Below are positions 5,644 to 34,340 of a stretch of DNA of 64,000 nucleotides, in pieces. The translations under genes and the position numbers were made by a program. The notes below the pieces were generated by a model. That model saw nothing but the letters and a program-made list of their open reading frames with translations. It did no database searches and was not told where the DNA came from. The stretch comes from Collinsella sp. MSK.8.10. Lineage in GTDB: Bacteria > Actinomycetota > Coriobacteriia > Coriobacteriales > Coriobacteriaceae. Each line of letters begins with the position of its first letter. Position 1 is the first letter of the stretch. The stretch is taken from the NCBI RefSeq assembly GCF_019041915.1, contig NZ_JAHPYF010000002.1, positions 62,001 to 126,000 of the forward strand, given 5' to 3'.

Positions 5644-5868
5644 CTACCAGTCCTCGTCTGCGCCGTAGTCATCGTCCGCGTCATCGTCGACGGCAAAGTC
5701 GCGGAGGTCGAGGCCTTCGCGTTCGGCTCGGGCTAGGAGCTCTTGGGGCGACTCGTCCTCGATATCCACTACGTCGAGCATAGCGGCCGAAAAGCCCACG
5801 CCCGCCGCACTCCCCGCGCGGTCGCGTAGGCTCTCGCGCAGCTGATCGACATCGACTTCGATTTTCAT
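5644..5868 (-). CDS. Small acidic protein, last gene of the BREX operon
   Basis: A 74-residue protein of unknown function. It starts with a short beta-like stretch MKIEVDVDQL and ends in a strongly acidic Asp-rich tail (DDDADDDYGADEDW). The ATG at 5868 is chosen because GGGAGG stands 7-12 bases upstream; an ATG 18 bases further out lacks a ribosome site. It begins 27 bases after the preceding 454-residue gene, so it is probably co-transcribed with BREX. A charge-mimicking or partner-binding role is possible but purely speculative. Confidence 0.65.
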   Translation of the reverse strand: MKIEVDVDQLRESLRDRAGSAAGVGFSAAMLDVVDIEDESPQELLARAEREGLDLRDFAVDDDADDDYGADEDW

Positions 5869-5895
5869 GGTGAAACCTCCCGCCAAACCAGGCCC

Positions 5896-7260
5896 TTACT
5901 CGTCAGTGCCGAGCGCATCCACGGCAGCGACAAAAGCCTCAACCTGCTTGTCGTCCATCTGCGTGGCCAAACGGCCCACGGGTTCATCGTAGGCGAACTG
6001 CACCTTATCGATAAAGCAATCCCAAGCACGCACGTCCACACGCACGGCTGCCTCGCAATACTGGCTGAGCTTTTTGAGTCCATACCAAAACGCATTCACA
6101 TGGCGCGCAGGGTCCTCATCCAGCACACCATCGTAGCGACGCTCATTGAACTCGCGCATGCGTGCCACGGCAACCTCGAGCGAGTCGCCGCCATCAGTCG
6201 AAGCCTCATCCACAAGCTCGGGAATCGCGACCTCACGCCGAACATCATGCCTGGTAGCGCCGTCGTACTCGCCCACCAGCACGTCTTCGTCAAGCCGTGA
6301 ATCGTAGTCTAAATAGCTCGAGCCCCGGCAAATCCCATGCGGTGAGCCAGAGCCAAACGCACAGAACAACCCGCCGTCGGCAACAACACGACGGTAGGTC
6401 TCAAACGACTTCTTAACCTGAGCGAGCAACTCGGAAAGCTCCCCGGCATCGCACGCCGTCTCACACGCAACGCACACAGACTCGGGCAACGATACCGGCT
6501 CCACCGTGCTCCCCGTAACGCGGGCGGCACGCTCGGCCCGATACGCCTGAGCCGCCAAGCGCGCTCGCTGCGCAGCGCCGCGCACGTTGGTAAGTTCACG
6601 CCCCAACGCCACGTCACTAGCAACATCGCCAGCCAAATCGCCCGTAAACCCGCCAGCGCCCTGCGACCCTGTCGCACTCAGCTCGGACTCAAACGTCGCT
6701 GTGATCATACCCGCAAGGTCCGTCGCATCGGCGGCACAACGCAACTGCTCCAGCTGCGTGCACAGCAGATCGGCATCCAGGGGCACGGCATCCACAACGC
6801 GCACGTCACTCAGGCGTGCCGCATCCCGCAACACCAAGGCCCCCGCAGCCTCGTACGCCGCACGAACCCTGTCAGCCGTATTCGCACGCAGCTTAACCTC
6901 GATAAACGCAAGCGTCTGTTCCAGGCGCGCCAGCAGCTCAGCCTTGTCTTCCATGCGCAAAAAGGCAGCATAGCGCCGCTCCATCTGCAGCGGACCCACA
7001 ACGCCTGTCTGCTTGCGAGCGCGCGCAAGGGCCGCACCCTCAACACGGCGCACGTACGTATCAACAGCCCGCACGGCAGAGTCGCGCGCAGCGTGCTCGG
7101 CAGCCTCGACGCCCCTAAGCACGCCCAGCAGCTCGCGAGAGCGCGCCTTGCGCACCAACTCTCCGCGATCGTACTGCTCAAGCGCCGTCTGACGCCTGGC
7201 CACCGACTCAAAGCCAAACAGCTCGTCGAGCAACTCGCCAACGCAACGCTCGTCCGCCAT
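5896..7260 (-). CDS. Unknown 454-residue protein downstream of brxL
   Basis: Not recognised. It is largely helical and rich in Ala, Arg and Glu, with no membrane segment and no nucleotide-binding motif. Residues 1-200 look like extended helices. Residues about 285-330 include a Cys-containing stretch (VCVACETACD) and then a short Gly/Ser-rich segment CAFGSGSPHGICRGSSYLD that could form a binding loop. The C-terminal 100 residues are again helical. The ATG at 7260 has GGAGG upstream, and the gap to brxL is only 74 bases, so it is very probably in the BREX operon. Canonical type 1 BREX does not end with such a gene. Confidence 0.75.
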   Translation of the reverse strand: MADERCVGELLDELFGFESVARRQTALEQYDRGELVRKARSRELLGVLRGVEAAEHAARDSAVRAVDTYVRRVEGAALARARKQTGVVGPLQMERRYAAFLRMEDKAELLARLEQTLAFIEVKLRANTADRVRAAYEAAGALVLRDAARLSDVRVVDAVPLDADLLCTQLEQLRCAADATDLAGMITATFESELSATGSQGAGGFTGDLAGDVASDVALGRELTNVRGAAQRARLAAQAYRAERAARVTGSTVEPVSLPESVCVACETACDAGELSELLAQVKKSFETYRRVVADGGLFCAFGSGSPHGICRGSSYLDYDSRLDEDVLVGEYDGATRHDVRREVAIPELVDEASTDGGDSLEVAVARMREFNERRYDGVLDEDPARHVNAFWYGLKKLSQYCEAAVRVDVRAWDCFIDKVQFAYDEPVGRLATQMDDKQVEAFVAAVDALGTDE

Positions 7261-7334: not shown

Positions 7335-9686
7335 CTACAGATCCAGCGCCTTCTTCGCGGCGTCGACGGGATCGCCATCCATGTAGAACACCGGGCTCAA
7401 GCCCGAGATAATCTCGGACGAAACACTCTGCAGGCCCGCGATGGCGCTCAGCGGCAAAATCACGCGCTTGGCGCCGGCGTTTTTGGCCACGCGCATAATG
7501 TCCTCGAGCCCGCGGATCTCGTCCATAGAGCCCGACATGCGCAAGATTCCTGGAATCGCCAGCGCGGGCATCACCGGGCGGTTGCACGCCGCGGAGCACA
7601 GGCCCACAAACTCGGCGAGCGAAACTTCTTCGGACAGGCCCTTGCTCTGCAGGTCGTTGTAGAACAGCAGGTAATCCTTGGAGCCAATGTGCATGCCCGG
7701 CGCCACGCGGTTCGCCAGGTTCACAAAGTTGTCGAACGCGGCTTCCAGCGTATCGCGCACCGGCTTGTTAAAGGCAACGCCCTCGTGCTTAAACTTGCAC
7801 TCGCCGGCAACGGCCTTGTTCTCCAGCTTGTACACGGCAACCTCGCCGCCCTGCGACCTGCCCACGCCAAACACGTGGCCGGACAGCAGCGGCCCGTCGG
7901 GAATCAGGGTGTCCTCGCTCTGCTCGGGCACGCGCACCACGTGCACGTCCTGCGGGTTGTCGGCATCCATATAGCCCAGGTTGACGTCGATAAACTCGAC
8001 GCCCGCCATAATCTTGAGCTGCTCCTTTACGCGGCGACGGCCCTCGATGGCGTAGTCCAGCAGCCAGCGCACGTCGTCCTTATCCATGGCCTCGTCGGGA
8101 AACAGCAGCTTGGCCAGGCCGCTAAAGGTCTTGCGCACGGCAATCTCGTCACGCTTGTTAAAGTCGCTGTTAAAGCGGAAGTAACGGTCGATATGGTGCG
8201 TAAAGTCCTTGCGGCGCATCTCCTTGCAAAACTCCGACAGGCAGTCGGTGATCAGGCCATAATGCCCGGTCAGCAGGCTCGAGCGCATCTTGGGAATCTC
8301 CCAACCCGGCAGGTAATAGTGGATACGGTCGAAGAAAGCCGAATCGTTGTTAAACTCCGGCGGGAACGGATCAAACAGGTGCGTGGTCTTAAGGACATTT
8401 TGCACGGTGTCGTTGATGTTGCCCTCAAAGACCATGGAGGCATCGGCGTTAATCTGGTCGCGGCCGCGCGCGTAGCTGCCACTCGCCATGTAGTCCTTCA
8501 TGATCTGCACGGCGTTGGTGTCCTTAAAGCGCATGCCGGCGACCTCGTCGAACGTCACGCAGTCCCAGTGGCCCACCAAGCCCACGCGATCGGCGCGCAT
8601 GGAGTTCATGCGGCCGAACAGATTGGCCGTGGTGGTCTGGCCGCCCGAAAGCAAGATGGCGTAGGGCGAGACCTCTTTGTAGATGTGACTCTTACCGGTG
8701 CCGCGGGGACCCAGCTCGCACAGGTTGTAGTTGCGCTCGATCAGCGGCACCATGCGCTCGATAAAGTGCAGACGCTCTTTCTCGGAAAGCTCGCTGGGCT
8801 CATAGCCAGCCGAACGCAGCAGCATATTGAGCCACTCGTCGCGCGTAAAGTACTGGCGCTCGTCGACCATGGCATCCAGGTCCAGATTGGGCATCTGGAT
8901 GGGCGTGAGCGACGCCACGCTAAAGGGAGAGTCCTCGGGTCCGCGCTTTTTGCGCTTGGCCTTGGAGCGGCGTGGCGCATCATCGCCAAAGACCTCCATA
9001 CCAAACTCGTCTTCCTCATCCAGGGGGTGACGATACTCGATGCTCATAATGCACCAAATGCCACCTTGCAGAATTTTGGAATAGTCGCGCACGTACTCAG
9101 CCGGCATTACAAACGGCTCGATGGTCAGATTGGCAAACGATGCCACGTAAATGTCTTTATACTCGTCGAGCTTGGCCGTCACCTTGTCGATGATGGTAAA
9201 GCGGCCCAGTTCGCGAATCTTGGACTTAATGCGCTCGGACTCGTCGGGGCGCACGTAATTATCGGTGAGGATCCTGCGAATACGGTCCAGGCCCTCTGCC
9301 ACGGCATCCTCGTCGTCGGTTGAGCAGTACATGCCCAGCAGATACTCCAGCACAAAGGTCGGCACGTTGGCGCCACGCTTCATAAGGGCCGTCAGGTCCT
9401 TGCGCACGATCTTGCCGGCAAAGTGCTCGAGCAGCTTGCCGTCCAACCCATCCATGTCGTAGCCGTCGTCCTCGGGAGTCTCGGCCACAGCCTGGTCATA
9501 GCCATCGGTCGAGGACTCGTCCTCGGCGGGCGCGGCGGCCTCAACGGACGCGGCGGCCGCCGCCGGCTCCGGGGCAGGCGCAGCAGCCTCAGCCGCCGGC
9601 GCCTCCGCAGGCGCCGCAGCCGCCGCAGGCACATCCACATCAATCGAGGGGACTTCCCACAGACCGTCGTCATGGCTATCAAACAT
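7335..9686 (-). CDS. brxL: BREX protein BrxL (Lon-like AAA+ protein)
   Basis: A 783-residue BrxL. Residues 1-75 are a low-complexity Ala/Pro/Glu extension absent from most homologues. The conserved part starts at about residue 80 (DGLDGKLLEHFAGKIVRKDL). The AAA+ core carries Walker A GPRGTGKS near residue 326-333, with DEVAGM as the Walker B region, followed by the BrxL-typical segment FDPFPPEFNNDSAFFDRIHY. The C-terminus has a Lon-protease-like fold. In known systems BrxL forms ring-shaped, DNA-binding assemblies needed for phage restriction. The ATG at 9686 is preferred over GTG at 9695 because AGGAG is 9 bases from the ATG and 1 base from the GTG. It starts 11 bases after pglZ. Confidence 0.95.
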   Translation of the reverse strand: MFDSHDDGLWEVPSIDVDVPAAAAAPAEAPAAEAAAPAPEPAAAAASVEAAAPAEDESSTDGYDQAVAETPEDDGYDMDGLDGKLLEHFAGKIVRKDLTALMKRGANVPTFVLEYLLGMYCSTDDEDAVAEGLDRIRRILTDNYVRPDESERIKSKIRELGRFTIIDKVTAKLDEYKDIYVASFANLTIEPFVMPAEYVRDYSKILQGGIWCIMSIEYRHPLDEEDEFGMEVFGDDAPRRSKAKRKKRGPEDSPFSVASLTPIQMPNLDLDAMVDERQYFTRDEWLNMLLRSAGYEPSELSEKERLHFIERMVPLIERNYNLCELGPRGTGKSHIYKEVSPYAILLSGGQTTTANLFGRMNSMRADRVGLVGHWDCVTFDEVAGMRFKDTNAVQIMKDYMASGSYARGRDQINADASMVFEGNINDTVQNVLKTTHLFDPFPPEFNNDSAFFDRIHYYLPGWEIPKMRSSLLTGHYGLITDCLSEFCKEMRRKDFTHHIDRYFRFNSDFNKRDEIAVRKTFSGLAKLLFPDEAMDKDDVRWLLDYAIEGRRRVKEQLKIMAGVEFIDVNLGYMDADNPQDVHVVRVPEQSEDTLIPDGPLLSGHVFGVGRSQGGEVAVYKLENKAVAGECKFKHEGVAFNKPVRDTLEAAFDNFVNLANRVAPGMHIGSKDYLLFYNDLQSKGLSEEVSLAEFVGLCSAACNRPVMPALAIPGILRMSGSMDEIRGLEDIMRVAKNAGAKRVILPLSAIAGLQSVSSEIISGLSPVFYMDGDPVDAAKKALDL

Positions 9687-9697
9687 AGGGCACACTC

Positions 9698-12379
9698 CTA
9701 AAAACCAAAGTCAGCAACAGGGGCAAACGAAACGGCGATGGTATACGTCTCGCGCCAAACGATCTTGCCCGTCTGCGCATCGCGACAAACCAGCAAATGG
9801 GACGAGCCGGACCCAAACGACACGCCCGCCTTAAGCGTAAAGCGAGCCTCGACCACGCGGTCCTGCGGGTTGGGCGAGGTCATGTCCGCATGCACGCGGG
9901 CAACGTCGCTCACCTCGTTGCCAGTCTCGTCGGTAAACACCAGCTCGTACTCGCACGGCAACACCTTGCCCGTAGCGGCCTCCTCCTGCAACAACTTAAT
10001 GCCAAACAGCGAGTTGGTAACGCGACGGCTCTCGCTCAGCACGCGCAGCTGAGCCATTTGCGTGTCGACAAATTCCTTTGAGGAAGCGCTCAGACGACGA
10101 TACCCGACCACCGGCACCACGAGCTCCTGCAAGCTCACGCCGCCATGCACGTAGCGCTTGGTTCCGCCGGGTCGCTTATAGTGCACGATCCCGCGCGGGG
10201 CCAAGCCGACATAGCCGCCGCCCGGCACCACATGGTCCATGTTCATGGCCAAATACGGGCTACCGTCCGCACCGTTGGCGATATCGGCCAAGGCGTCGCC
10301 CTGAGCGACCACCGCATGGCGCTTGCCAAACAGCACCGGATCGTCGGGCAGGTCATTCTTGCCCAGGAACAGGCATTCCGGCAGCTCGTTGGCCGTGAAC
10401 AAAAAGCCATGGTCGGACGTAATCGTCACGCGGGCGCCCGGCGCATCGGTGCACACGCGCTTGGCGATCGAGACCAGCTCGTCCACGCTCTCGGCGCACG
10501 CATCGAACACGTCGCTTTCGGTGGCGAGTTTCTCCCCCGTCGCGTCGATCTTGTTGTGATACAGGTACACGATCTCACTGGACTTGAGCAGCTCCTTGCG
10601 TTCGGCGGCAGACATGTCCAGATACGCCGCGGCACTCAGGGCACGACCCACAGGCGCGGCCTTCTGCAGCACCGCTTGACGCTCGACCGTAGAGCCCGTG
10701 GGCATGCCATCGAGCTGCACGGCGCCCGTTTCCATGTTAAGCGTCATGCCCTGATGCGGCAACAACGCCGGCATGCCCATCTCGGTAATAGAGGGGAACA
10801 TCGCCTGCATGCTACCCATGCGCACCTCGCCGCCGCGCTCGCGCTCCAAAGCGGCAGCCACATCCTGCGCCACCTCGTAGCGCAGCGCATCGCTAATCAG
10901 GACCACCTTGGCCTTGGCACTGCCAGCATACGTGGGCAGCGTCTCCCAATAGAACAGGTCTTGGCGAGCGACGCCCTCAACATAGCCGGCATCGCGCCAC
11001 TGCGCCTGAGCGGCATTGGCCCAGCATGCGTTGCTCTCGGTCAGATACCAGTTAACGTAGTTGTTCTCGGCCCACTCGACCGCGCGGCGCTCGGGTTCCT
11101 CCAGCAGGTCGACACCACGCAGCTTGCAGCGTTCGTCTGCCTGACGCAGTGCGCGATATGCCGCATCCATGCGCCACCAATCTGTGGTATAGGCCTCCCA
11201 CACCTCGGCCGCCTGGGCAATGTGGAATCCGCCCGCATGGTCGCGCTTAAAGGCTGCCATATCGGCCAGTGCCAAAAGCACCTGGTAGTAGCAGGCGACA
11301 TCGTCGTACCAGCACAGATCGCGACGGGCCGCGGCAACACGACGGGCCTCGTCAACGCGGTCGGCCCCCTGTGCCAGTGAGGCGAGCAGGTCGCTCAAAA
11401 TGGCCTCGTCAACGCACGGGAACACATCGAGGCGCAGCAGATCGTCGGTAGACAGAGCGCCAAACACATGGCGCAGGCCGCACGCGTCCTGGACCAGCTC
11501 GCAAATCTCGCGCAGGTCATCAGACGCCGCAGCATCGCCCGCCCATTCGCGGACAACCGCGATGCAATACGGCGCGTAGGCAGGCGCAATATGGTTGGAG
11601 AGCTTTTGCAGCGCAGAGGCCGGCACCAACGAGGCCGCAGCCGTCAGCAGCACATGGGCGGCAAAATCCTGGAGCGAATCGCGCTCGAACAGCGCGCCCT
11701 CAAAGCCGGTGCGCTGACGCACAAAGGCAGCAAGACTGTCGGCGGCCTCAAACTTTTGCGCCAGCTCCGACAGCGCCTCCGGACCATCGTGCAGCAACAT
11801 GGTCAGGCACGCGCGCACAATAAACGGCATGGTGGCAGCGCTGGGATCGGAGCCACCAAACATGGCAGCCAGCAGGCCCAGCTCAACATCGGCCGCACAC
11901 GCAGGCGCGGGCATGCACTTGGAAAACTTGGCGACGCGACCCTTGGCGTCAAAGAACGACTTGTGCGCCTGCAGAGCCTTGCGAATATCCCTCGCGTTGG
12001 AGGCGCCCAGCTGATCGGCCAGCAGTGACAGATAGTCCGCCGAGAACTGATCGGCGTACAGCTCAACATCGGCCAGCCAATCGCCCTCAAGGCTACCGCG
12101 CCCATGTTGGCGATACACCAGCATGTCGCTCGTGGTGTCCTCGCGGGCGATAAGGCGCTTGACCTCAAACATATGCCCGTCGCAAGCCTCCACAAAGCGC
12201 ACCGGACGCGGCAGGCGCTGCTCTACCGCTTCGCCAAAGCCGCCCTCGGCAAGCTCGGCAAACGTAGCGGCAAACTCGCCCTCCGCGTCGTGCCACACCA
12301 CCACGCGGCGCTCACGGCAATCGGGCAACGGCTGTTCAAAGCGCGCCGCCAGCTCTTCAATTACATCGAACTTTGCCAT
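9698..12379 (-). CDS. pglZ: BREX-1 PglZ (type A) alkaline-phosphatase-fold protein
   Basis: An 893-residue PglZ of the BREX-1 type. The alkaline-phosphatase-superfamily core lies in the second half: VVLISDALRYEVA near residue 490 carries the nucleophile-region Asp, and ITSDHGF near residue 650 carries the metal-ligand Asp-His. The N-terminal half is the helical region seen in type A proteins. PglZ interacts with PglX and is needed for both methylation and phage exclusion in studied systems. It follows the C-terminal pglX fragment by 60 bases and precedes brxL by 11. It appears intact, with no frameshift or in-frame stop. Confidence 0.95.
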   Translation of the reverse strand: MAKFDVIEELAARFEQPLPDCRERRVVVWHDAEGEFAATFAELAEGGFGEAVEQRLPRPVRFVEACDGHMFEVKRLIAREDTTSDMLVYRQHGRGSLEGDWLADVELYADQFSADYLSLLADQLGASNARDIRKALQAHKSFFDAKGRVAKFSKCMPAPACAADVELGLLAAMFGGSDPSAATMPFIVRACLTMLLHDGPEALSELAQKFEAADSLAAFVRQRTGFEGALFERDSLQDFAAHVLLTAAASLVPASALQKLSNHIAPAYAPYCIAVVREWAGDAAASDDLREICELVQDACGLRHVFGALSTDDLLRLDVFPCVDEAILSDLLASLAQGADRVDEARRVAAARRDLCWYDDVACYYQVLLALADMAAFKRDHAGGFHIAQAAEVWEAYTTDWWRMDAAYRALRQADERCKLRGVDLLEEPERRAVEWAENNYVNWYLTESNACWANAAQAQWRDAGYVEGVARQDLFYWETLPTYAGSAKAKVVLISDALRYEVAQDVAAALERERGGEVRMGSMQAMFPSITEMGMPALLPHQGMTLNMETGAVQLDGMPTGSTVERQAVLQKAAPVGRALSAAAYLDMSAAERKELLKSSEIVYLYHNKIDATGEKLATESDVFDACAESVDELVSIAKRVCTDAPGARVTITSDHGFLFTANELPECLFLGKNDLPDDPVLFGKRHAVVAQGDALADIANGADGSPYLAMNMDHVVPGGGYVGLAPRGIVHYKRPGGTKRYVHGGVSLQELVVPVVGYRRLSASSKEFVDTQMAQLRVLSESRRVTNSLFGIKLLQEEAATGKVLPCEYELVFTDETGNEVSDVARVHADMTSPNPQDRVVEARFTLKAGVSFGSGSSHLLVCRDAQTGKIVWRETYTIAVSFAPVADFGF

Positions 12380-12439: not shown

Positions 12440-13408
12440 TTATTTTATCTTTGCCAGCACATCCTGGAACTTGGCATAGTTGACCTTAACACCGTCGTCC
12501 AGGTCGATCTTGATCATCTGGTCGGCCAGGTGATGCAGCTTTTCCTCGTAGGCAACGGTCTCGGTCAGCTGGTCCTTGAGCTTTTTGATGCGCTTGGTCA
12601 GCGCGACCTTCTCGCCGCGCTCGGCCGTGGCCAGCGCATCCTCGGCATCGGCGATCTGCGAGCGATAGCGCTCCTGCTGCTCGTGCACGTAGTCGGTACG
12701 AATGCGCGCCAGCAGATCGGGAGTATAGCGGTGCATGTAGACCAGAGCCATAAAGCCGTTCTTTTTGCCCGAGTCGAACAACCAGTAGATGGGGCGTTTC
12801 TTGTAGGTCTGGCAGTGGTCCTTAAAGAAGTCCTTCAAAAAGTAGGTGCGGATGACCTCGCGCGAGGTACCCTTGCCGCCGAGCGCCTCGGCAATAAAGG
12901 CCAGGTTCTGCTCGAGCGTCTCCTCGCCATACACAGTGCGCACAAAGTCGATAAAGTAGCGCACGATGTCGTCGTCAAAGTACTCGTCGTCGGTGATGGG
13001 CAGCACGTTGTCGCCATCGGGCATAAAGGTCACGTGATCGGGATCGGGCATCTTGGCCAGATAGTCAGAGACCGTGGCGCCCTGGTCGGCCAAGACCAGA
13101 CCGTCCACGTCCAGCGAATAGCGACCAAACATGCAGCCCACGGCATAGCTTATGAGCGAGGTGATCTCGTCGCGCTTGGTGCGCACGTACTTGTTGCCCT
13201 TATAGCTCTCGGGGATCTCGTCGGCGGTGTCGAAGATGCGCGCAACCGATACATACTTGTCCTCGACCTCGATGGGCACCTCGCCCTCCATGTTGTAGAT
13301 CTTGGCAAAGATTCGGTTGAGCTCCTCCTCGTTAGCGCGAAGCTTCTCAAAGCGAGCATTGACCTCGGCCTTGCGAGCCTCGTATTTATCGGCGAGCAAC
13401 GTTGCCAT
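12440..13408 (-). CDS. pglX: PglX C-terminal fragment (BREX adenine methyltransferase, split gene)
   Basis: A 322-residue protein corresponding to the last third of PglX. It begins with a coiled helix and then the PglX signature ANEEELNRIFAKIYNMEGE. It continues with RPIYWLFDSGKKNGFMALVY and a long charged coiled coil before the end. No methyltransferase motif is present; those lie in the separate gene at 17784-20276. The two products together total 1152 residues, the usual length of one PglX, so little or nothing is lost. The fragment has its own ATG (weak ribosome site) and an in-frame stop 30 bases upstream. GC-rich codon use matches pglZ and contrasts with the AT-rich DNA immediately upstream. 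It may work as a second subunit or be a remnant. Confidence 0.85.
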   Translation of the reverse strand: MATLLADKYEARKAEVNARFEKLRANEEELNRIFAKIYNMEGEVPIEVEDKYVSVARIFDTADEIPESYKGNKYVRTKRDEITSLISYAVGCMFGRYSLDVDGLVLADQGATVSDYLAKMPDPDHVTFMPDGDNVLPITDDEYFDDDIVRYFIDFVRTVYGEETLEQNLAFIAEALGGKGTSREVIRTYFLKDFFKDHCQTYKKRPIYWLFDSGKKNGFMALVYMHRYTPDLLARIRTDYVHEQQERYRSQIADAEDALATAERGEKVALTKRIKKLKDQLTETVAYEEKLHHLADQMIKIDLDDGVKVNYAKFQDVLAKIK

Positions 13409-13601
13409 ATCTCTATCCCATCCAATCAGGACCGATTAAAAGCCCAATAAAACTAGCTAAGTCAACATAGACAAGTCTACCCGACAGCAAAGCTAATAGC
13501 GCCCCGTGCAGAGCATTCGCAGGCACCATTTTGAGAGTACTTCCACTACAGGCCGACCCCGCTTTGCAGCCAATATGTATTAACTTACTCCACCAGCTCC
13601 A

Positions 13602-13632
13602 CCATTTGTTGAGCAACAAGTGCGAGCGGTAG
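13602..13632. repeat. 31-base direct repeat with palindromic core, copy 1
   Basis: Identical over 31 bases to 16475-16505, same orientation; weaker similarity extends about 20 bases further upstream. The core TTGTTG-AG-CAACAA (13606-13619) is a perfect palindrome. It lies about 200 bases upstream of the C-terminal pglX fragment. It may be an operator or a recombination site. Confidence 0.75.
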
Positions 13633-13878: not shown

Positions 13879-14556
13879 ATGAGGGAGCTTTCCGTCTTCG
13901 TCGACGAATCCGGCAACTACGGAGGGCAAAGTGCTAAGTACTATCTCGTCACGCTTGTATTTCATGACCAGTCAGCATCAATTGCTGAAATTATCGAGCG
14001 TTATAAACACACGCTTAGAACGCGTGGACTTCCCGATATTCCCCTACACATGAACCCCCTGATGCACGGCAACGAATCCTACGGAGCCATGGACACTCGC
14101 TTGCGCAATCGGCTTCTGGCGAGCTTTGCAACATTTGCAAACAAATGCCCCGTTACATACATGACGCTCAGTTACCAAAGAAACAAATTTAAAAGCGATG
14201 CGGCAATGTTCGCAAGGATGCGTCGCGATTTGATCCTCTTTTTGTTCGACAGGCTTCAGTCTTTTCAAGACTATAGCGTCATCAAGATTTATTACGACGA
14301 CGGACAAGACGAAGTAACAGCTGTCCTCCATGCGGCATTCGAATACGTCCTTGGGAAACAGGCTGTGGTTTACAAAGAATGTGATCCGAAGCACTTCAGG
14401 CTTCAGCAAATTGCTGACTATATTTGCGAAATCGAGCTGGCGGAGATTAAATACGGTAATTCCGAGCAATCAAATACCGAGCAAATCTTTTTTGGAAACT
14501 ACCGTGATTTCAGAAAGAATCACCTTAGAAAGATTCGGGCGAAACGTCTCGCGTAG
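13879..14556 (+). CDS. DUF3800 protein (RNase H-like fold) inside the split pglX locus
   Basis: A 225-residue DUF3800 protein. It has the family's N-terminal DESG (residues 9-12), a central YYDDGQDEV strand with acidic residues, and a C-terminal QQIADYI block; these acidic positions line the active site of an RNase H-like fold. The family is often found in mobile or defence loci and beside conserved small RNAs; its biochemical role is not established. AGGGAG lies 7 bases before the ATG. It is the only plus-strand gene within the BREX region and is AT-rich compared with neighbours. Hairpin RNAs precede and follow it, suggesting one RNA-protein unit. Confidence 0.85.
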   Translation: MRELSVFVDESGNYGGQSAKYYLVTLVFHDQSASIAEIIERYKHTLRTRGLPDIPLHMNPLMHGNESYGAMDTRLRNRLLASFATFANKCPVTYMTLSYQRNKFKSDAAMFARMRRDLILFLFDRLQSFQDYSVIKIYYDDGQDEVTAVLHAAFEYVLGKQAVVYKECDPKHFRLQQIADYICEIELAEIKYGNSEQSNTEQIFFGNYRDFRKNHLRKIRAKRLA

Positions 14557-26407: not shown

Positions 26408-28336
26408 TTACATCTCCTTGCGTTCTTGCGTATCGTCCGCGGCGTCCTGGTCGTTGACCTCGCTCCGCTGCTCTTCGTCATCAAACAGGCCCTTAAACAC
26501 GAGCTCCAGATCTCGCTCGTCGGTATAGCCGGGTTCCAACGTGCCGCGGTCGATCGAGTCGAGCATGACCTGTTCCTTGTGCTGCAATCGCTCGTAGATA
26601 TTGCGGTCGAGCGACCAGGGCCCACCGCGGCGTTCGTACACAGCGCGCAGGTAGTGATACTGCGTGTATTGCTCTTGCGGCAGGCCCAAGCGGTGAATGC
26701 GATCTTTGGACTGCAGCAGGTGCACCAGGTTGTAGCTGCACTCAAAGTAGACGGCGTCGTGGCACACGCTGTGGAGCGAGACCGACTCTGCCAGCGTATG
26801 TGGGTTGGTAACCAACACGCTCGTCTCCCCCGCCTTAAACGAATCGATGACGCGGGCGCGCGCGGGCATGTCGGTGCCACCGCTAATGGCGCGGGCCGTA
26901 ATGCCACGCTCGTGCAGCTCATGCACCACCTTGCGAATACTGCGCTTAAAGATGCACCACACGATGACCGACTTGCCCTGGGCTACCAGGGACTCGACCA
27001 GGTCCAGGCAGGCTACCATCTTGGCTGTGGGCCGGTCATCCACCTGCAGCCCTTCCAGTGCCTTGCCCGCACCCGCCAGCACCTCGCCATCGAACAGGTC
27101 GGCATAGTCGCCGGCACTCAGGTCCTCGGCCAGCATACGCGGGTCGGACGAAAGCTGCAGCAGGCGAATAATCATCTCGAACGGCTCGCCCGAAAGCGTA
27201 CGTAGCACCTTTTGGAACAGCTGCTGCTCCCAACGGTCCACCGGCACATCGACCAAATGGTCCTCGTTGGCCTGAGGAACGCCCAGCTGGTACTTGTTGG
27301 TGCGACAAAAGAACGGCGCGATGGACTCGTTGATATGCTCAACGTCGTCCTCGCTCGTCGACCTGAGCGAATTGGCGCTCAAACCAAAGTACCAGCTGTA
27401 ATCGCGCGGCCATAGACAGTGGAGCAGGTTATATAGGTCCTCAAACGAGTTGGGGATCGGCGTACCGGTGAGCGCGATAAAGTACGGCGCCGCCGCGGCA
27501 ATCTGCACGGCACTCGCCGCGCGCTTACCGCCCACGCGCTTCACCTTATGCACCTCGTCAAACACCACCAGGGCGCGATCGGCCGCAATGCGAGCGGCCG
27601 CCTCCCCCAGCGCGACCGACTCGTAATTGAGCAAAATCATGTCGTAGCGCTTGTAGTCGAACAGCAGGGTGCTGCACTTATCGCGCGTGGAACGACCGCG
27701 AAACTCGGGGTCGTGGAAGCACAGCGAGCGCAACGGGCGGTCGGCTCCAAAGCAAGCCGCCCATTCATCACGCCACGAGCCAAAGGCATTCTTAGGCGAA
27801 AGTACGATGATGCGGTCGACCAGGTCGCGCTCGCGCAGGTACGCATACGTGCCCAGGACCGAAGCCGTCTTGCCCGAACCGGGAACGGAGAAATTGGCGC
27901 TGCGGCCCATGGCGCTCATAAAGAACGCGTCCCACAGCTGGCGATCCTTGAGCGGGCGCTGCATCAGGATATCCTCGGCGCGACAGAACTCATCAAAGCG
28001 ATCGGCCACCGACGCGTCGTGCGCCTTGATCAGCAGGCCCACGCGCGCCTTCTCACGCAGATAGTCCTCGCGCGCCGTAAGGCCTCGCAACAAGTCGGGG
28101 TCAATTTCGCAGTCCACGCCAAAGTTTGCCGCCTGTTGCAGCAGCTCAACAACGCGCCTGGCGCCTGGATCGTCAATCCCCAGAGAAAAGAGCACGTCCG
28201 CCTCTCGATAGCTCGGCGCATAGCGGCGCAGCGCCGAAAGCCGAATCTTCCAGACTGGCTCGCGGCGCAGCTGCTCAACCGTCATGTCGAGCGGCACGAC
28301 GGAAATGCCGTCGCTATACGAGAGGCGGAGTTTCAT
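26408..28336 (-). CDS. SNF2-type DEAD/DEAH helicase/ATPase in the BREX operon
   Basis: A 642-residue superfamily 2 ATPase of SNF2 layout: motif I PGSGKT at 152-157, motif II DEVH at 260-263, motif III LTGTP at 289-293, and the C-lobe motif VI QSKDRIHRLG near residue 545. About 120 residues precede the motor. SNF2 proteins translocate on double-stranded DNA and remodel bound proteins. This is not the Lhr-like BrxHI or the BrxHII type known from other BREX subtypes, so it is an accessory. The ATG directly abuts the stop codon of the ParB-like gene, and four bases separate its stop from the next gene. Confidence 0.9.
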   Translation of the reverse strand: MKLRLSYSDGISVVPLDMTVEQLRREPVWKIRLSALRRYAPSYREADVLFSLGIDDPGARRVVELLQQAANFGVDCEIDPDLLRGLTAREDYLREKARVGLLIKAHDASVADRFDEFCRAEDILMQRPLKDRQLWDAFFMSAMGRSANFSVPGSGKTASVLGTYAYLRERDLVDRIIVLSPKNAFGSWRDEWAACFGADRPLRSLCFHDPEFRGRSTRDKCSTLLFDYKRYDMILLNYESVALGEAAARIAADRALVVFDEVHKVKRVGGKRAASAVQIAAAAPYFIALTGTPIPNSFEDLYNLLHCLWPRDYSWYFGLSANSLRSTSEDDVEHINESIAPFFCRTNKYQLGVPQANEDHLVDVPVDRWEQQLFQKVLRTLSGEPFEMIIRLLQLSSDPRMLAEDLSAGDYADLFDGEVLAGAGKALEGLQVDDRPTAKMVACLDLVESLVAQGKSVIVWCIFKRSIRKVVHELHERGITARAISGGTDMPARARVIDSFKAGETSVLVTNPHTLAESVSLHSVCHDAVYFECSYNLVHLLQSKDRIHRLGLPQEQYTQYHYLRAVYERRGGPWSLDRNIYERLQHKEQVMLDSIDRGTLEPGYTDERDLELVFKGLFDDEEQRSEVNDQDAADDTQERKEM

Positions 28337-29569
28337 TTAGGCTTCCTCGCCGCCCATCTTGTACGCAATCTTGTCTTTGATCATATGCACCCTGGCCTCG
28401 AGCTTGGCAACCTCGGCAGCGATATTGGCGATCTCATCCGCAGGCAGCAGGCCAAAGGTGGACTCCTCCACCTGATCGAGGTCCTTGATGGCGCGGATAA
28501 TCGAAAGCGAAGGCGACTTGAGGGCCTTGTTCATCTTGGTGGTGTTCTCGGCCGACTCCATAACCTCACGGAAGGTCGTCGCCAGCTGAACATCGTCGCG
28601 AATCTCGGCGATGTCGGTCGAGGTCACGACCTCTTTGTTCTTCAGGCGCTCGGCAACCTCAAAGGCCAGCTCGTTTTCGCGCTCGATAAAGCGGTCCGCA
28701 TCGGGGCCTTCCAGAATCGGCTTCATCTTGCGGACAAAGCGCACGATGTCGCCCTGCGGTTCGGCAATCATGTTGGCAAAGACGATGTTCTTAACGTCCT
28801 CTTCCTGATCGTCGCTCTTGCACTTTTTTAGGACGCCCTGCAGGTCGTTGATAACGCCGGCAACCTTGAGCTCGCGCGCCAGGTGGAACTGGTCCTTGGC
28901 GTTGGCAAACTCCAGGAATTCGTTCATATAGCGGGCTTTTACAATCTCCTTCTCGAGCTCCTTGGGCTCAACGCCAATGCACTGGGCGTATTCCTCCTTC
29001 GAGAGCAAGTTGGAGCTGATGATGTCGTTGTAGATGCCCACCAGGCGGTCGACCGGGTCGTAGCCAACCTTCTCTTCCTCGCCATGCTGGATCGAAAGCT
29101 CCAGCATCTTGATCTTCTTGGAATCGTTACCCAGGCTCTCGGGAAGAATAACAGCCTCAAACCAGCCAAAGCTTGGGTTTTCGGCGGCAAGACGACGCAG
29201 GCAGGTAAAGCGACGGTTGCCGTCGACGATCAGGCCGTCGGCCAGCACCACGCCGGGACGCTCTTGCGAACGCAGGGCAATGCTACGCTGCGTCTTTTCG
29301 ATGGCATCCTTGTTGCTGTCGACGATAAAGCCCTCGATGATGTCATTGCAGGCGGCAACATCCAGCTCGTTAAATGCACTCTCGCCATGCTCGGCCTTGT
29401 AGCGGCTAATCCAGGAGGCAATACGGTCGTTCTGCACGTTGTAGCGCAGGAACTCGAGCTTAATGCTGTAAACGGGATACATCTCGGGCTTGCCGTCGAT
29501 CACAATCTTGTGGTTGGCGCCGGTCGGTTTAATGTTGACGCCGTCGCCGATCATCTCGAGCAGGTTCAT
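28337..29569 (-). CDS. ParB/Srx-like N-terminal domain protein
   Basis: 410 residues. The N-terminal 150 residues have a ParB/sulfiredoxin-like pattern: VYSIKLEFLRYNVQNDRIAS, then LADGLIVDGNRRFTCLRRL, where DGNRR (116-120) corresponds to the DG-x-RR motif of ParB-like NTPase/nuclease folds. The remaining 260 residues are helical. Members of this fold in defence loci can bind or cut DNA or hydrolyse nucleotides; the activity here is unknown. It sits between the giant DNA-binding-like protein and the SNF2 ATPase, with intergenic gaps of 12 and 0 bases, so the three are surely one transcriptional unit. Confidence 0.8.
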   Translation of the reverse strand: MNLLEMIGDGVNIKPTGANHKIVIDGKPEMYPVYSIKLEFLRYNVQNDRIASWISRYKAEHGESAFNELDVAACNDIIEGFIVDSNKDAIEKTQRSIALRSQERPGVVLADGLIVDGNRRFTCLRRLAAENPSFGWFEAVILPESLGNDSKKIKMLELSIQHGEEEKVGYDPVDRLVGIYNDIISSNLLSKEEYAQCIGVEPKELEKEIVKARYMNEFLEFANAKDQFHLARELKVAGVINDLQGVLKKCKSDDQEEDVKNIVFANMIAEPQGDIVRFVRKMKPILEGPDADRFIERENELAFEVAERLKNKEVVTSTDIAEIRDDVQLATTFREVMESAENTTKMNKALKSPSLSIIRAIKDLDQVEESTFGLLPADEIANIAAEVAKLEARVHMIKDKIAYKMGGEEA

Positions 29570-29581
29570 GTCTGTTTCCTC

Positions 29582-32500
29582 CTATTGGTTGTTTTTGATA
29601 TACAGTTCGCGCAGGTAAGCTGCATTCGCTTCCTTGTTGGGCATAACCATGTCAAGGTCCTCGTTGTAGAACAGGTCTTTGTCCTTGACCGCCCTGTTGA
29701 TGTCGTAAGCGGTAACGACCACACCGTAATCGTCCTGAAACGCATCGATAAGGTCGTCTACACCAATGGGGCCCCTTTGCTTGGCGACATATTCGACCGC
29801 GTCGGCAATGGAGAAACTCCCTTCCTTTCGGCAGAACATGTAGGTGCCGCCAAAGCGGGTGCGCCTAATCTGTTCTTGCGGCAGCCCGTACACAACAATC
29901 GAGTCGAAAAACGCATCGTCAAAGCCACACTCCTCTGCCACAGTATCGAGTTTGTGCTCAAAGCCCTGTTTGCGCAGGCTTGCCACTGTAAATGGCACGC
30001 CCGGCTCCGTACGACCAAAAACGGCATATGCATATGAGCTTAGGTCTGTACGTCGAATTCCCACCGACTCCTCTAGGTGCTTGAGCGAAATAAATGAACC
30101 GTGATTACACTCGATAAAGGTGAAGTTGCGTAGCAGCTGAGCTATTGCCAGCCTAAAGTCCTGGTGGTTAATGACTTCATCGCCAAACCCCGGCGCTCCA
30201 TAGGCAAAGCTATCGCGCGACATAAGCAGATTTTCAAACGATTTCCGCAGGTCAACGCCCTTTTTAACGATCAGGTCCCTCGAGACCTCCAAGCCCAGGG
30301 GCGCGAGCGTCTGATCGTTAATGAGACGACCGGACGTGGAGCCAAACTTAGCAATAAAGCTCGCCCTGACGTACGGCAGCGATACATAGTCTTCGGTCAC
30401 CATGTCCTTGATGAATTGTTGCTGCTCGGCAGAAAGGTCGACATCGACATACGAGTAGCGATCGTTTCGCAGATATGCGTTCATGTCGCGCAGGTAGTTA
30501 CTGCGAACCGTCTTCGTGTCTATGCAGTACTTGTCCGCGTAGCGCTGGGCAAACTCCTCGCGCGACAGCTCGGTGCCCGCGTCGCGCAGCACATCGAGCA
30601 TCTGACGCTTGCGATCCGTCTCGCCCAAGCGTATCACGGGGGGCATAACCGTCCGCAAACCGTGCACCGTATCCGGGCGCACGTACGTGCGGATAATCTC
30701 GTAGAGCTCCTCGTCATCACGCACGTCGTATAGGTCGCACAACTCCTTGTTCTCGCGCAGGATAAGACCCGCGCCGCACTCGATATTGCGCCCGGCGGCG
30801 AGCGTTAAGACCCGACGCAACTCGGACGTAAGGCGGTTGTCAATCTTGTAGGAGCGTATCTTGTTGCCATGCGCCACCAAAAAACTTCCGGTGCCGCGTA
30901 ATTCGTTAAGGCACTTGGTGTCTTCGGAAGGCATCACCAACATCTGTTTAAAGCCGCACTTGTTATCATTCAAAAACCGCTGGTACTTGATGCGGATGTC
31001 TTTGAGCGTGTGATATTCCTCAACAGCTCCGGTCTCGGCAAAGGCACGCAGCGCGGCGCAGCGAGTGGAGAAGCTGCCCAGCTTTTTACGCGCAATCTGC
31101 TCGAGCCGAGAGGCGTTGTCCTTTTCGATGTTTACAGGCGCTCGAGGCGTATCCGCGGCAGGACGGCGGTGCAGCTGCGCTATCCTATCACGCCACTCCT
31201 GCGGCAATGTCGGATCATTGGCGGCGCGGCGAAGACTAAACCTGTTCGAGACTTTAATGGCCTTCAGATAGCCAAAGGCCATCGGAGACGCCTGTGTTAT
31301 CTCGCAAAACGTCTCCACGGTAAGGTCGTAACACGTGTAAAACGAACTAAATTGATCCTCGTCCAATTGCGGACGGCTGCTGATCAGGTCATCACGACGT
31401 CGACGCAGAGAACCGAGTCCGGCCGGCTTGCGAGGGTAATCCATAAGGGGCTTGTCGCTAAAGACCCAGCGCAGCAGGTCGGCATCGTCGGCGGGAAGCA
31501 CCGCCAGCCACGCCTCGATAGACATAGGGCCTTTGCCGGTGAGGTCTTCGATTTTGCTGGTAAAGGGCTTTGCCGGCTGTTGTGGGGCCGGGGCGGAAGT
31601 TGGCTCCGGAGCGGCAGGGTCAGGCATCTGGTCTGGCTCGGGCTCGGTCGCAGGCTCGGGCTCGGGTGCGACGGCCGTCTCAGCCTCGGCCTCGGGCTCG
31701 GGCGTCGGCGCGATAGCCTGCTCCGCAGGCGCGGTCCCCTCCCCAGCCGGCTCGTCAGCGTTTTCGGCTTCCATGCTCGCAAAGTACGCGCGAACCACAT
31801 CGCAAACAGACGGCGCAAGGTCCTTATCGACCCTTGCATATTTAAGCGGGATGGTGCCCTGTCCGTATATGCGCTTCATATAAAGGAATGCAGGCTGCGC
31901 GGTTTGCGTAAGGCCGTAAAACTCCTCGGCGGTCAGCTTATACACATGGAAGAGCGGACCAAATGTATCGACGTCAAACGTTGGACGACCTTCCATGAGC
32001 GCATCGTAACGCACCCCAATATAGCTGGAAGGCCTTCCGATGCTGCCGGCCCATTTAGCCGGATTGTTCTCGATGAGCATATAGCCCATCAGGGTGCGGT
32101 CCTGGTATGCAAGGTCAGCGAACCACCTGTTGAACTTTGCAGCATCCGGGTCGATGGCCAGCTTGAGCGCCTGCCCAACCGTAAGGTTCTGAACCTGCGG
32201 CCGCTTGAGCTCACCAGAGGATGCCGTCGTGCGAGATTGGGCCTGGGCATCGGGCTGATTGCTCGGTTGGGTCACGCTGGACGGTGCAATAACGGTATCC
32301 ACAGGATTAGCGTCTGTGCAGACAGAGTCAGTATCGGCCGCATCAATATCTTCCCGATCATGAGGAGCCTCAAAGTTCAGACGCTTGAACGTTATTACGG
32401 CCGCATTAAAGGCGGGGTATTCGTTTTTGAACTCATTGAGTGTCAATTTGACAGAATACTTTTCGCTGTAACCCTCCGCAAGCTTACCCGCCAATCTGGT

Positions 32501-34267
32501 GCAGAAAAGTAGGCGGAAAGAGGGCTCGTTTACGGACAGGCGCTCTTTTCGCAACTCAAGCACTGTTTCGTCGGCAAGGCGGTTTATAGCTATAGCACGT
32601 TCAACGGGCGTATTGACCGACGGATACCAACCTCCTATCGCCGCTTGACGGGCAAGCTCCATCTCATACTTGATTCTTGCCAGTTGCAAACTCCCCGCTG
32701 GCCAATCTTTCAAAGCAGCGACAATCGAGCGCACTTCGGCGGGAGCGAGGCCCCCCGAGCGCAGCCTAGAAGCGCTATAAGTGAGTAGCTCGGGCAAGTC
32801 GTAGATATTAAGGTTCCATTTTAATTTGCGCTGAATTGCCGGAGTAATCGAAAGGTTCCACAGCGAAAGCGGCGCGCCGTCGCGCGTATACACCGTGCTG
32901 AGCGTTTCGGTAATCGGTCCTTTGACGTTGGCGAAGGCACGACAATCGCGCTCAATGCTGCGCAAATTACCAAAGACGTCAAACACCAGCCTCGCATTGC
33001 CCGATAGTCTGCCGAGCTCCGGCACCTGCGCGCGATACTGCGGAGAAAGCGGCAAAGCATAGGCGGTAAGATGCTTTTCGAAAGCAGTGCGTAAGGCCTC
33101 GTCCTCAGTCTTGCCCAACTTGCGCACGAGGTCAAATACATCGTGAATCTCTTGCTTGTTGAGGAAGGCAACCTGGGTCTCGGTATCAAACACACAACGC
33201 GGGTCATCCCAACCGCTCAGGTACTTGGGACGCTCGAGCTTTTTAACGGCATCCTCGGAAGGCTCTAGCGCGGATGTGGGCATGGCCTCAAGCTCGGGCT
33301 CAGGCTCTTCAACGGACGCGAGTTCGTTTGAAGGCTCGGGTTCACACTCGAGCGCAAGCGCGGGCTGCTCAGGCTCGGCGGCGGGTGCGGGCTCGGCGAC
33401 CGGTGCAGGCTCGGCGACCGGTTCGGACTCAGCAACGGCCTTCGCGGTCTCAATACTTTCGGAGAAGGAAATGGACAGCTGGTGCGGCTCGGAAGACAGC
33501 GTGGGTTCGGGACGTCCGGGCTGGATGGACTCCCCTTGCTCTGCCTGCACTGGCTCTTGCTGCTCAGCCGACTGCTCGGCGGTCGCCACAGGCTCCGTCG
33601 GCGGCTCGTATCCCATTAGGGACAGGCCGTCGGCCGGCTTCTTGTCATACGAAACGCCCACGGCAACGGGGATAGGCCAGCTGCGCCCATTAACCTTCAA
33701 CTGCACAAGGGTCGAATCTGCGCGCAACGAAATGGGGCCGCAAGCCATAGGTGCAGGGGGCTCAGGGGCAGGAGGCTCCGCGAACTCGGGCTGAGCGTCC
33801 ATCGGCTCCGGCACATCCACATCGACGGATTCAATTTCTGCGACTTCATCCGCTTCGGGCTGAACGTGTTCGGAATCCTCTAGCTCGCCTGTATCCTCGA
33901 CAACCTCAAGCGCATCGCCTTCGGCAGCCTCAAGCACAGCTTCTTCGGACTCGGTGTCCTCGTCATCAACGAAGGCATTGTCAATTGCTTCAGACTCAGC
34001 GGCCTCGCCATCAACAGTAGCATCGTCAACATCTCCGGTATCAACGACTTCAAGCTCGACAGCGTTGGACTCGACGAAATCCGAAGGCACCGGCCCCGCT
34101 GCCTCCACGGCCGCATCAGGCGCCATGCTGTACTCGCCGTTGGCATACAAAAGTTCGCCATGTATATAGTTGGGCCAGCGCGCGCTCGTATGAGTCATTA
34201 ATGGTGCGATACACGCTCGAGCGTACCAACGCTTCGTGAAGCGGAGCATCGGCCTGCGCGACCGCAT
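29582..34267 (-). CDS. Giant multi-domain putative DNA-binding protein, head of the BREX operon
   Basis: The open frame covers about 1515-1560 residues. From the N-terminus: an acidic region; a long Glu/Pro/Ala linker; a helical segment whose LSITPAIQRKL and IYDLPELLTYSASRL blocks resemble the RNA polymerase alpha C-terminal helix-hairpin fold; two repeats of a domain (LMGYMLIENNP with YKLTAEEFYGLTQ; LMDYPRKPAG with YDLTVETFCEITQ) separated by a second Glu/Pro linker; and a C-terminal half of several winged-helix-like units. ATG at 34267 is only the first start in this frame. The natural N-terminus is probably in the overlapping frame from 34340, broken by a frameshift near 34164-34169; ATG 34126 is another possible start. 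No enzyme motif is visible. Confidence 0.7.
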   Translation of the reverse strand: MRSRRPMLRFTKRWYARACIAPLMTHTSARWPNYIHGELLYANGEYSMAPDAAVEAAGPVPSDFVESNAVELEVVDTGDVDDATVDGEAAESEAIDNAFVDDEDTESEEAVLEAAEGDALEVVEDTGELEDSEHVQPEADEVAEIESVDVDVPEPMDAQPEFAEPPAPEPPAPMACGPISLRADSTLVQLKVNGRSWPIPVAVGVSYDKKPADGLSLMGYEPPTEPVATAEQSAEQQEPVQAEQGESIQPGRPEPTLSSEPHQLSISFSESIETAKAVAESEPVAEPAPVAEPAPAAEPEQPALALECEPEPSNELASVEEPEPELEAMPTSALEPSEDAVKKLERPKYLSGWDDPRCVFDTETQVAFLNKQEIHDVFDLVRKLGKTEDEALRTAFEKHLTAYALPLSPQYRAQVPELGRLSGNARLVFDVFGNLRSIERDCRAFANVKGPITETLSTVYTRDGAPLSLWNLSITPAIQRKLKWNLNIYDLPELLTYSASRLRSGGLAPAEVRSIVAALKDWPAGSLQLARIKYEMELARQAAIGGWYPSVNTPVERAIAINRLADETVLELRKERLSVNEPSFRLLFCTRLAGKLAEGYSEKYSVKLTLNEFKNEYPAFNAAVITFKRLNFEAPHDREDIDAADTDSVCTDANPVDTVIAPSSVTQPSNQPDAQAQSRTTASSGELKRPQVQNLTVGQALKLAIDPDAAKFNRWFADLAYQDRTLMGYMLIENNPAKWAGSIGRPSSYIGVRYDALMEGRPTFDVDTFGPLFHVYKLTAEEFYGLTQTAQPAFLYMKRIYGQGTIPLKYARVDKDLAPSVCDVVRAYFASMEAENADEPAGEGTAPAEQAIAPTPEPEAEAETAVAPEPEPATEPEPDQMPDPAAPEPTSAPAPQQPAKPFTSKIEDLTGKGPMSIEAWLAVLPADDADLLRWVFSDKPLMDYPRKPAGLGSLRRRRDDLISSRPQLDEDQFSSFYTCYDLTVETFCEITQASPMAFGYLKAIKVSNRFSLRRAANDPTLPQEWRDRIAQLHRRPAADTPRAPVNIEKDNASRLEQIARKKLGSFSTRCAALRAFAETGAVEEYHTLKDIRIKYQRFLNDNKCGFKQMLVMPSEDTKCLNELRGTGSFLVAHGNKIRSYKIDNRLTSELRRVLTLAAGRNIECGAGLILRENKELCDLYDVRDDEELYEIIRTYVRPDTVHGLRTVMPPVIRLGETDRKRQMLDVLRDAGTELSREEFAQRYADKYCIDTKTVRSNYLRDMNAYLRNDRYSYVDVDLSAEQQQFIKDMVTEDYVSLPYVRASFIAKFGSTSGRLINDQTLAPLGLEVSRDLIVKKGVDLRKSFENLLMSRDSFAYGAPGFGDEVINHQDFRLAIAQLLRNFTFIECNHGSFISLKHLEESVGIRRTDLSSYAYAVFGRTEPGVPFTVASLRKQGFEHKLDTVAEECGFDDAFFDSIVVYGLPQEQIRRTRFGGTYMFCRKEGSFSIADAVEYVAKQRGPIGVDDLIDAFQDDYGVVVTAYDINRAVKDKDLFYNEDLDMVMPNKEANAAYLRELYIKNNQ

Positions 34268-34340
34268 CTAAAATAAGTGACTCGTAGTACGCGACTACGT
34301 CCATCGAATCATTTGCAGCGCTCGTAGCATTTTTATTCAT
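34116..34340 (-). CDS. Probable original N-terminus of the giant protein (frameshifted)
   Basis: A 74-residue frame starting at ATG 34340 (MNKNATSAAND) and ending at 34116. Its first 60 residues (AYYESLILDAVAQADAPLHE onward) look like a winged-helix unit, and the frame change to the giant gene at TATATA (34164-34169) would complete the domain as ALAQLY-IHGELLYANGEY. Loss of one TA unit, or of one base, explains the break. Alternatively it is a genuine small upstream gene whose end overlaps the next start. Confidence 0.5.
   Translation of the reverse strand: MNKNATSAANDSMDVVAYYESLILDAVAQADAPLHEALVRSSVYRTINDSYERALAQLYTWRTFVCQRRVQHGA

Follow-up and report, generated by a model that had tools for sequence, protein, structure and literature searches.

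Directly upstream of a type 1 bacteriophage exclusion (BREX) locus in Collinsella sp. MSK.8.10 stand four genes on the same strand, and the question they raise is whether they serve BREX or form a system of their own. The locus lies in a stretch of 64,000 nucleotides (contig NZ_JAHPYF010000002.1 of assembly GCF_019041915.1, positions 62,001 to 126,000), referred to here as the window. From 34267 to 5644 the minus strand carries genes for a giant protein, a ParB-like protein, an SNF2 protein and a coiled-coil protein, followed by BrxA-BrxB-BrxC-PglX-PglZ-BrxL, a 454-residue protein and a small protein. The gaps from giant to ParB, SNF2, coiled-coil gene and brxA are 12, 0, 3 and 105 bases, the last figure assuming a brxA start at GTG 25270, as obtained from alignment. 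The original prediction saw in the four upstream genes a separate effector or anti-escape module under BREX control and a candidate new defence system. The four genes are present on the minus strand as described, except that the gap after SNF2 is 3 bases rather than 4 and that the giant gene is frameshifted.

The first three of these genes, called the trio or module below, are best read as a portable, conserved, nuclease-linked candidate defence system that lies next to BREX and is not part of it. The probability that the upstream genes are a self-standing, mobile predicted defence system, landed beside BREX in some Collinsella, is put at roughly 60%.

The trio as an independent unit

When the ParB-like protein was used as query, 2757 of the 7999 proteins scored were relatives, and an alignment of 33 of these, scanned against a genome collection, gave 104 relatives, the best 80 of which were kept and correspond to 79 loci. 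The order giant-ParB-SNF2 was found by profile searches in 48 of the 79 loci. A further 20 have the order ParB-giant, and 19 of these carry a HEPN-type motif on a long ParB. The remainder consists of four loci with giant-ParB and no SNF2 (two stop at a contig end), three with ParB-SNF2 and no giant (all begin near a contig end), three with ParB alone and a single ParB-SNF2 fusion (L031). Gaps between the module genes are mostly short or overlapping. Protein distances between the trio members correlate with r of 0.87-0.91, a level reached in none of 999 permutations; it was computed on 38 trio loci, ten of the 48 having been set aside (six copies of the same length, three duplicates and one with a truncated giant). 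The proposal that giant, ParB-like protein and SNF2 form a separate module is thus borne out by their common order and their correlated distances.

BREX genes are found in only two of the 79 fetched stretches, which reach at most 10 kb to each side: in L001, from Collinsella, and as a BrxL-like gene in L014. A whole-genome search with one BrxC domain likewise found BrxC in only two of 50 carrier genomes. The trio is therefore regarded as an independent unit. It recurs, in most cases apart from BREX, in Bacillota, Coriobacteriia, Bifidobacterium and Treponema as well as on plasmids of Enterococcus. ParB relatives are present on 66 plasmid records, 52 of them from Enterococcus. In each of three plasmid regions that were read, a large gene, the ParB relative and a DEAD/DEAH helicase are consecutive; the large gene is annotated as sigma factor-like in two, and a type I restriction system adjoins one.

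An equal-length module with nearly equal scores (L131, 8134-18755) occurs on contigs of Collinsella, Bifidobacterium, Paraeggerthella, Arcanobacterium and Olsenella. As judged from gene lengths and scores rather than by direct comparison of sequences, this module was likely transferred recently between genera. Its Collinsella copy has an Eco57I-type fragment, a ResIII helicase and GmrSD nearby.

The ParB-like protein, SNF2 and exchanged effectors

The predicted ParB-like NTPase of the window (28337..29569, minus strand) has 410 residues, with DGNRR at 116-120, and its AlphaFold2 model has a predicted local distance difference test score (pLDDT) of 91.6. The best fold matches of the model are ParB, KorB and Noc, and DGNRR is invariant in 33 of 33 aligned relatives. 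With a ParB fold and a conserved nucleotide-site-like motif, the protein belongs to the ParB/Srx superfamily. A profile of the family found no relative among PDB sequences (best E 0.051), whereas the fold search did find relatives. The SNF2 motor (26408..28336, minus strand) has 642 residues and is a short form without a phospholipase D (PLD)-like domain. It matches Pfam SNF2 at E 2.5e-13 and Helicase_C at E 4.6e-9, and GSGKT and DEVH motifs can be read in it. The 642-residue relatives in L001 and L002 have GSGKT and DEVH at 153 and 260, with no HxK near 133.

The effector-type partner varies by branch: SNF2 alone, a PLD-like-SNF2 protein, a HEPN RNase fused to ParB and, once, BrxL. The one long SNF2 protein that was scanned, that of L059, begins with a PLD-like domain that matches PLDc_2 at E 8e-5, below the curated cut-off. 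HxK is present at about 132-138 in 23 of the 52 SNF2 proteins listed, although this loose pattern has chance matches elsewhere too. Similarly, the one long ParB scanned (L041) starts with HEPN_Swt1 (E 3.8e-29), and an RNxxxH-type motif lies within the first 170 residues of 21 of 24 long ParB open reading frames (ORFs); the other three are the SNF2 fusion of L031 and two with a C-terminal extension. In L014 (9965-13211), a metagenome-assembled genome of Ruminococcus flavefaciens, giant and ParB are followed by the BrxL-like gene, which replaces SNF2.

The giant protein

In the window, the giant gene is an ORF of 1561 residues (29582..34267, minus strand) with a low-complexity N-terminal half and a winged-helix-rich C-terminal half. 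The latter is homologous to a family of giants characterised by the C-terminal domain of the RNA polymerase alpha subunit (alpha-CTD) and sigma region 4. Profiles built from up to 72 relatives, with the window protein excluded, match C-terminal pieces of it at E 9e-14, 3.7e-24 and 8.6e-33. The homologous C-terminal half and the operon position before ParB-SNF2 place the window protein in this family, but its domains do not; since neither alpha-CTD nor sigma-4 is recognisable, it is taken to be a derived member.

Across the family, sigma-70 region 4 is matched by Pfam (E up to 0.01) in 31 of 36 giants, the window protein counted among the 36, and alpha-CTD in 28; PDB profile matches reach E 1.1e-16 for alpha-CTD and E 3.3e-9 for sigma region 4. 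The likely contact residues were followed in an alignment of 72 giants near L008, which omitted the window giant and other divergent giants. Residues corresponding to R584, E585, R588 and Q589 of sigma70 are kept in 69, 70, 70 and 72 of these proteins, and those corresponding to R265, N268, G296, K298 and E302 of alpha, in the first repeat, in 66, 65, 69, 56 and 70. These positions are presumed to be the equivalents of promoter-contact residues in E. coli sigma70 and alpha. The predicted structure of the L008 giant (pLDDT 86.9; predicted template modelling score, pTM, 0.49) has matches among known structures of alpha-CTD, helix-hairpin-helix and winged-helix type. No nuclease fold is among the matches listed for this model, which are short-domain matches on long models.

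The conserved start of the giant lies at ATG 34340, but its frame (34116..34340, minus strand) meets a stop 74 codons on and differs from that of the long ORF. Full-length copies exist in other Collinsella, and most of the 120 Collinsella-type homologues listed, of 195, have 1500-1600 residues. The window gene therefore has either an N-terminal frameshift of its own or an assembly error.

Genes next to the module

Neighbours were scanned for 137 of 229 listed proteins, from 37 loci, and families were counted among the first 25 of 106 in Pfam and the first 25 of 199 in PADLOC. The Pfam counts, which have no control set, include C5 DNA methylase 9, MutH-type 7, HIRAN 5, AspBHI N-terminal 3, HNH 3, and GmrSD_N, Mrr, BglII, integrase and resolvase 2 each; the PADLOC matches are headed by type II methyltransferases. 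Restriction-modification genes thus appear to be frequent beside the module, which is suggestive only, since the counts lack a control. Because the trio is a separate unit, has nuclease-bearing variants and has restriction-modification genes as neighbours, calling it a candidate new defence system is reasonable.

Alternative explanations

Several observations weigh against the reading of the trio as a defence system. The distance correlation (r 0.87-0.91) still contains shared species history. The window giant is frameshifted near its N-terminus, and the giant of the Collinsella genome G002 is interrupted by TAG. With the profiles of its relatives, the window giant gives no alpha-CTD match and sigma-4 at E 0.65 only, and the domain arrangement of the giants is uncertain because the pTM of the model is low (0.49). 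The short SNF2 form, to which the window protein belongs, carries no known nuclease. Non-defence families are also found among the neighbours, such as leucine-rich repeat (5) and BRCT (4). Lastly, a ParB fold and presence on plasmids would also be expected of genes for partition or maintenance.

This last point leads to the best surviving alternative, that the genes encode a complex for regulating transcription or maintaining an element, in which the giant would bind promoters, the ParB-type protein would serve partition or silencing, and SNF2 would remodel RNA polymerase in the manner of RapA. Alpha-CTD, sigma-4, ParB and SNF2 are all components of such machines, and the 66 plasmid records would suit them. 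However, a HEPN RNase has been swapped in by some branches and a PLD-like domain by others, and restriction enzymes are often neighbours, so that this explanation is considered improbable.

Unlikelier still is a role dedicated to BREX, in which the block would add an effector or anti-escape layer to the work of BrxC and PglX. The block does immediately precede brxA, both in the window and in the genome G001, where module and BREX are arranged in the same way; a BrxL-like gene takes the SNF2 position in L014; and one palindrome precedes both the module and, in relatives, brxA. Against this stand the scarcity of BREX among carriers of the trio and the distribution of both systems within the genus. 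Among 43 Collinsella genomes, five have a giant match of any kind, and it is close in two (G001 and G002). BrxC matches occur in 14, of which one is a 45-residue fragment and one is partial, and 13 of these 14 have no giant match. Conversely, G002 has the close module without BrxC, and G003 and G004 have a remote version of it, also without BrxC. Chromosomal flanks are common to the window, G001, G002 and seven BREX-only loci, while G015 and G020 show no match to these flanks.

The coiled-coil protein encoded by the fourth gene (25376..26404, minus strand; 342 residues) shares its N-terminal domain with a coiled-coil protein inside pglX (BLASTP E 4e-9) and, as a best match, is confined to the window, G001 and G002. 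Both the fourth gene and the linkage to BREX look local to Collinsella. The original prediction would have been abandoned if the four genes had occurred in one strain only or scattered independently; this does not hold for the trio, but it does count against a four-gene unit, as the fourth gene is a paralogue of pglX cargo, and against an effector or anti-escape role in BREX.

The least probable alternative is that the module in the window strain is decaying baggage and BREX alone works there, as the frameshift, the TAG within the G002 giant and the missing alpha-CTD and sigma-4 would suggest, but most listed homologues have the full 1500-1600 residues, the ParB and SNF2 frames are open and the frameshift is possibly an assembly error.

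A possible mechanism

For the trio as a defence system, a tentative and somewhat doubtful mechanism can be proposed, in which the invader is recognised by a core assembled from those parts of RNA polymerase that read promoters, namely two alpha-CTDs and sigma region 4. The giant would be a DNA-binding platform that finds invaders by docking on their promoter-like sequences, such as UP and -35 elements. Alternatively, it could pose as parts of RNA polymerase and be struck, as a bait, by phage proteins that attack the polymerase. The ParB-like protein, as a clamp gated by nucleotide, would register the docking of the giant and then trigger one of several interchangeable DNase, RNase or motor effectors: SNF2 translocation or remodelling (the window type), an SNF2-driven PLD nuclease, or HEPN RNA cleavage. 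We infer this promoter mimicry with least confidence for the window's own copy. Its giant is without recognisable promoter-reading domains. Nothing but the winged-helix half of the giant, together with the ParB clamp and the motor, would therefore be active there, if the frameshifted gene works at all. If the mechanism is true, bacteria reuse promoter-binding domains of their own transcription machine as an immune sensor, with effectors exchanged as in other modular defences. The trio thereby offers a test of whether immunity can be directed at promoters, as opposed to base marks or replication intermediates.

Comparison with known systems

PADLOC, Pfam and NCBIfam gave no match for the giant and ParB of the window and general or partial similarity only for SNF2. 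PADLOC also has no match for an Enterococcus giant and ParB, and its only match for the L041 giant is PglW (E 2.4e-5). The trio is not described in the literature surveyed, which covers few subscription papers. In the window, the downstream genes from BrxA to BrxL follow the canonical order of BREX type 1; unlike in that system, pglX is split by cargo. The trio further upstream does not belong to BREX and is found apart from it in most cases.

The helicases of other BREX types were held in the original prediction to be distinct from SNF2. This is not entirely correct, as BrxHII of type 3 is classed as Swi2/Snf2 in a 2026 BREX survey (PMC12839542). The window protein matches BrxHI best at 438-554 (E 1.6e-8) and BrxHII at 483-555 (E 1.3e-5), neither over the full length, and its partial PADLOC matches to ZorD and DpdE are stronger.

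GmrSD/BrxU and SspE resemble the module in their ParB/Srx-like fold, a DG-x-R-R type motif and the fusion of a nuclease domain, found in some branches. They differ from it in that the module ParB is paired with a giant DNA-binding protein and with SNF2 or HEPN; the window ParB also has no GmrSD_N (DUF262) or HNH at Pfam E<=0.001 and NCBIfam E<=0.1, unlike GmrSD/BrxU. PbeABCD, a PLD-helicase system, is similar in that the N-terminal ~220 residues of the long L059 SNF2 protein match PbeA at E 3.4e-62. This strong match is the PLD part, which the window SNF2 lacks; the latter matches PbeA at 437-510 only (E 5.6e-10), and with giant and ParB unmatched in PADLOC, the combination of PbeA with PbeB-D is not found in the window. 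For the L008 giant, NCBIfam models match MzaA of MZA (E 1.7e-5) and PglW of BREX type 2 (E 4.8e-9). These matches, like that of PADLOC PglW to the L041 giant, are limited to the sigma-4 or alpha-CTD piece of the giants.

Fusion of a Swt1-type HEPN to ParB (Saro_3948) is tabulated in Anantharaman et al. 2013 (PMC3710099), and the relevant part of that paper describes neither the alpha-CTD/sigma-4 giant nor an SNF2 counterpart. Two further candidates were rejected, since a review connects Azaca with PLD-like domains, and Menshen with DUF262 plus an OLD nuclease, rather than with the giant-ParB-SNF2 trio.

Control of the locus

A palindrome, TTGTTGCACAACAA, lies at 34457..34470, 116 bp upstream of ATG 34340. 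As TGTTGNNCAACA it occurs three times in the window, at 34458 upstream of the giant and at 16480 and 13607 in the pglX insert, as compared to an expectation per window of 0.02 on average and at most 1 in 50 first-order simulations. One copy is found upstream of brxA in seven BREX-only Collinsella loci and also in G044. In G002 the palindrome is again upstream of the giant, and G001 has a one-mismatch version there and two copies in the pglX insert. The fetched stretches of G015 and G040 contain no palindrome, and that of G020 has one in its pglX part and none before brxA. Genome-wide, each of eight Collinsella genomes scanned has 1-5 matches and none to a reversed control pattern. The idea of a BREX-only element was ruled out, as genomes without BrxC have copies too.

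Upstream of brxA, GGTATGATT (25333..25341, minus strand) is a putative -10 element followed by a 5' hairpin, and it is identical in nine of nine aligned Collinsella loci, the window included. It is a candidate -10 only, since no sigma-70-like site was detected by promoter scans in the minus-strand interval from module to brxA; nor was one detected upstream of the giant. Given the distribution of the palindrome, common to the module and to brxA of relatives, one regulator may control both, and given the conserved GGTATGATT, BREX in the window probably keeps its own start. The hairpin in the brxA leader (25270-25332) has a similar position but a different sequence in the window and G001 as compared to BREX-only Collinsella.

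The BREX-1 genes and the split pglX

The six core genes were predicted to lie in canonical order on one strand. Pfam and PADLOC matches agree with this order (brxA, brxB, brxC, pglX, pglZ, brxL) and with the strand, but not with an intact pglX. On the minus strand are brxA (24599..25270; start by alignment; Pfam BrxA E 4.5e-38), brxB (23973..24596; Pfam BrxB E 9.7e-34), brxC (20307..23963; PADLOC BrxC 1182 bits), pglZ (9698..12379; Pfam PglZ E 2.6e-40) and brxL (7335..9695; Pfam BrxL_ATPase E 1.3e-131). The gene for the 454-residue protein (5896..7260, minus strand) and that for a small acidic protein (5644..5886, minus strand) follow, as had been described, the small ORF being 80 residues here and 63-76 in relatives. 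Both are kept in this order 3' of brxL in eight of eight complete Collinsella BREX loci, the window included, whose BrxC is at least 53% identical to that of the window. They were not seen after brxL in G015, G020 and G040, and the G044 stretch ends before that side. In G002 (L108, 1-2803), a second giant paralogue with sigma-4 occupies the BREX position and adjoins a leftover copy of the small 74-residue gene.

Instead of the one intact ORF of BREX type 1, pglX consists of two ORFs 4.4 kb apart. The N-terminal part (17784..20276, minus strand; 830 residues) holds the methyltransferase domain and matches PADLOC PglX over 1-869 of 1174 (E 1.8e-259) as well as Pfam Eco57I. The C-terminal part (12440..13408, minus strand; 322 residues) matches it over 877-1170 of 1174 (E 5.3e-122). 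Three minus-strand ORFs and a plus-strand gene make up the insert. A 216-residue ORF (17125..17775) has no Pfam match at E up to 5 and contains an HEFGH motif, which makes it a zinc-peptidase-like candidate as a lead only. A 199-residue ORF (16565..17164), with no Pfam or NCBIfam match, is a probable membrane protein as judged by eye. A 528-residue coiled-coil protein (14758..16344) is the BLASTP relative of the 342-residue fourth gene, and the plus-strand gene encodes a DUF3800 protein (13879..14556; Pfam E 3.7e-8). The coiled-coil and DUF3800 cargo is flanked by 55-bp direct repeats (13578..13632 and 16451..16505) that are 85% identical and hold the palindromes at 13607 and 16480. In G001 (L107), copies of the repeat core are found on both sides of a related coiled-coil cargo gene.

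The split is at one and the same place in 10 of the 11 complete Collinsella BREX loci fetched, and pglX is fused in G015; G036 is cut by a contig end, and two further BrxC matches lie outside the fetched set. The content of the insert differs between loci, and in eight of 11 split loci, the window counted, it includes a small RNxxxH or RHxxxH protein, two of these eight being 93% identical to each other. Seven were scanned, of which one is a clear RiboL-PSP HEPN (E 1.3e-10), four have weak HEPN-family matches (E 0.0013-0.14) and two are without match. HEPN genes have been found beside BREX in the 2026 survey, in the main text of which the words "split" and "Collinsella" do not appear (PMC12839542). 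The methyltransferase gene of Collinsella BREX is thus divided, and a candidate ribonuclease of HEPN-like type often lies in between, which would be a natural arrangement for a fail-safe that responds to inhibition of PglX.

Other features of the window

No Rfam family and no tRNA gene was found across the 64-kb window. Beyond the giant, at 34510-35359, are two small plus-strand genes that, as judged by eye, resemble a Phd/RelE-type toxin-antitoxin pair, and the antitoxin region of this putative pair is common to BREX-only Collinsella.

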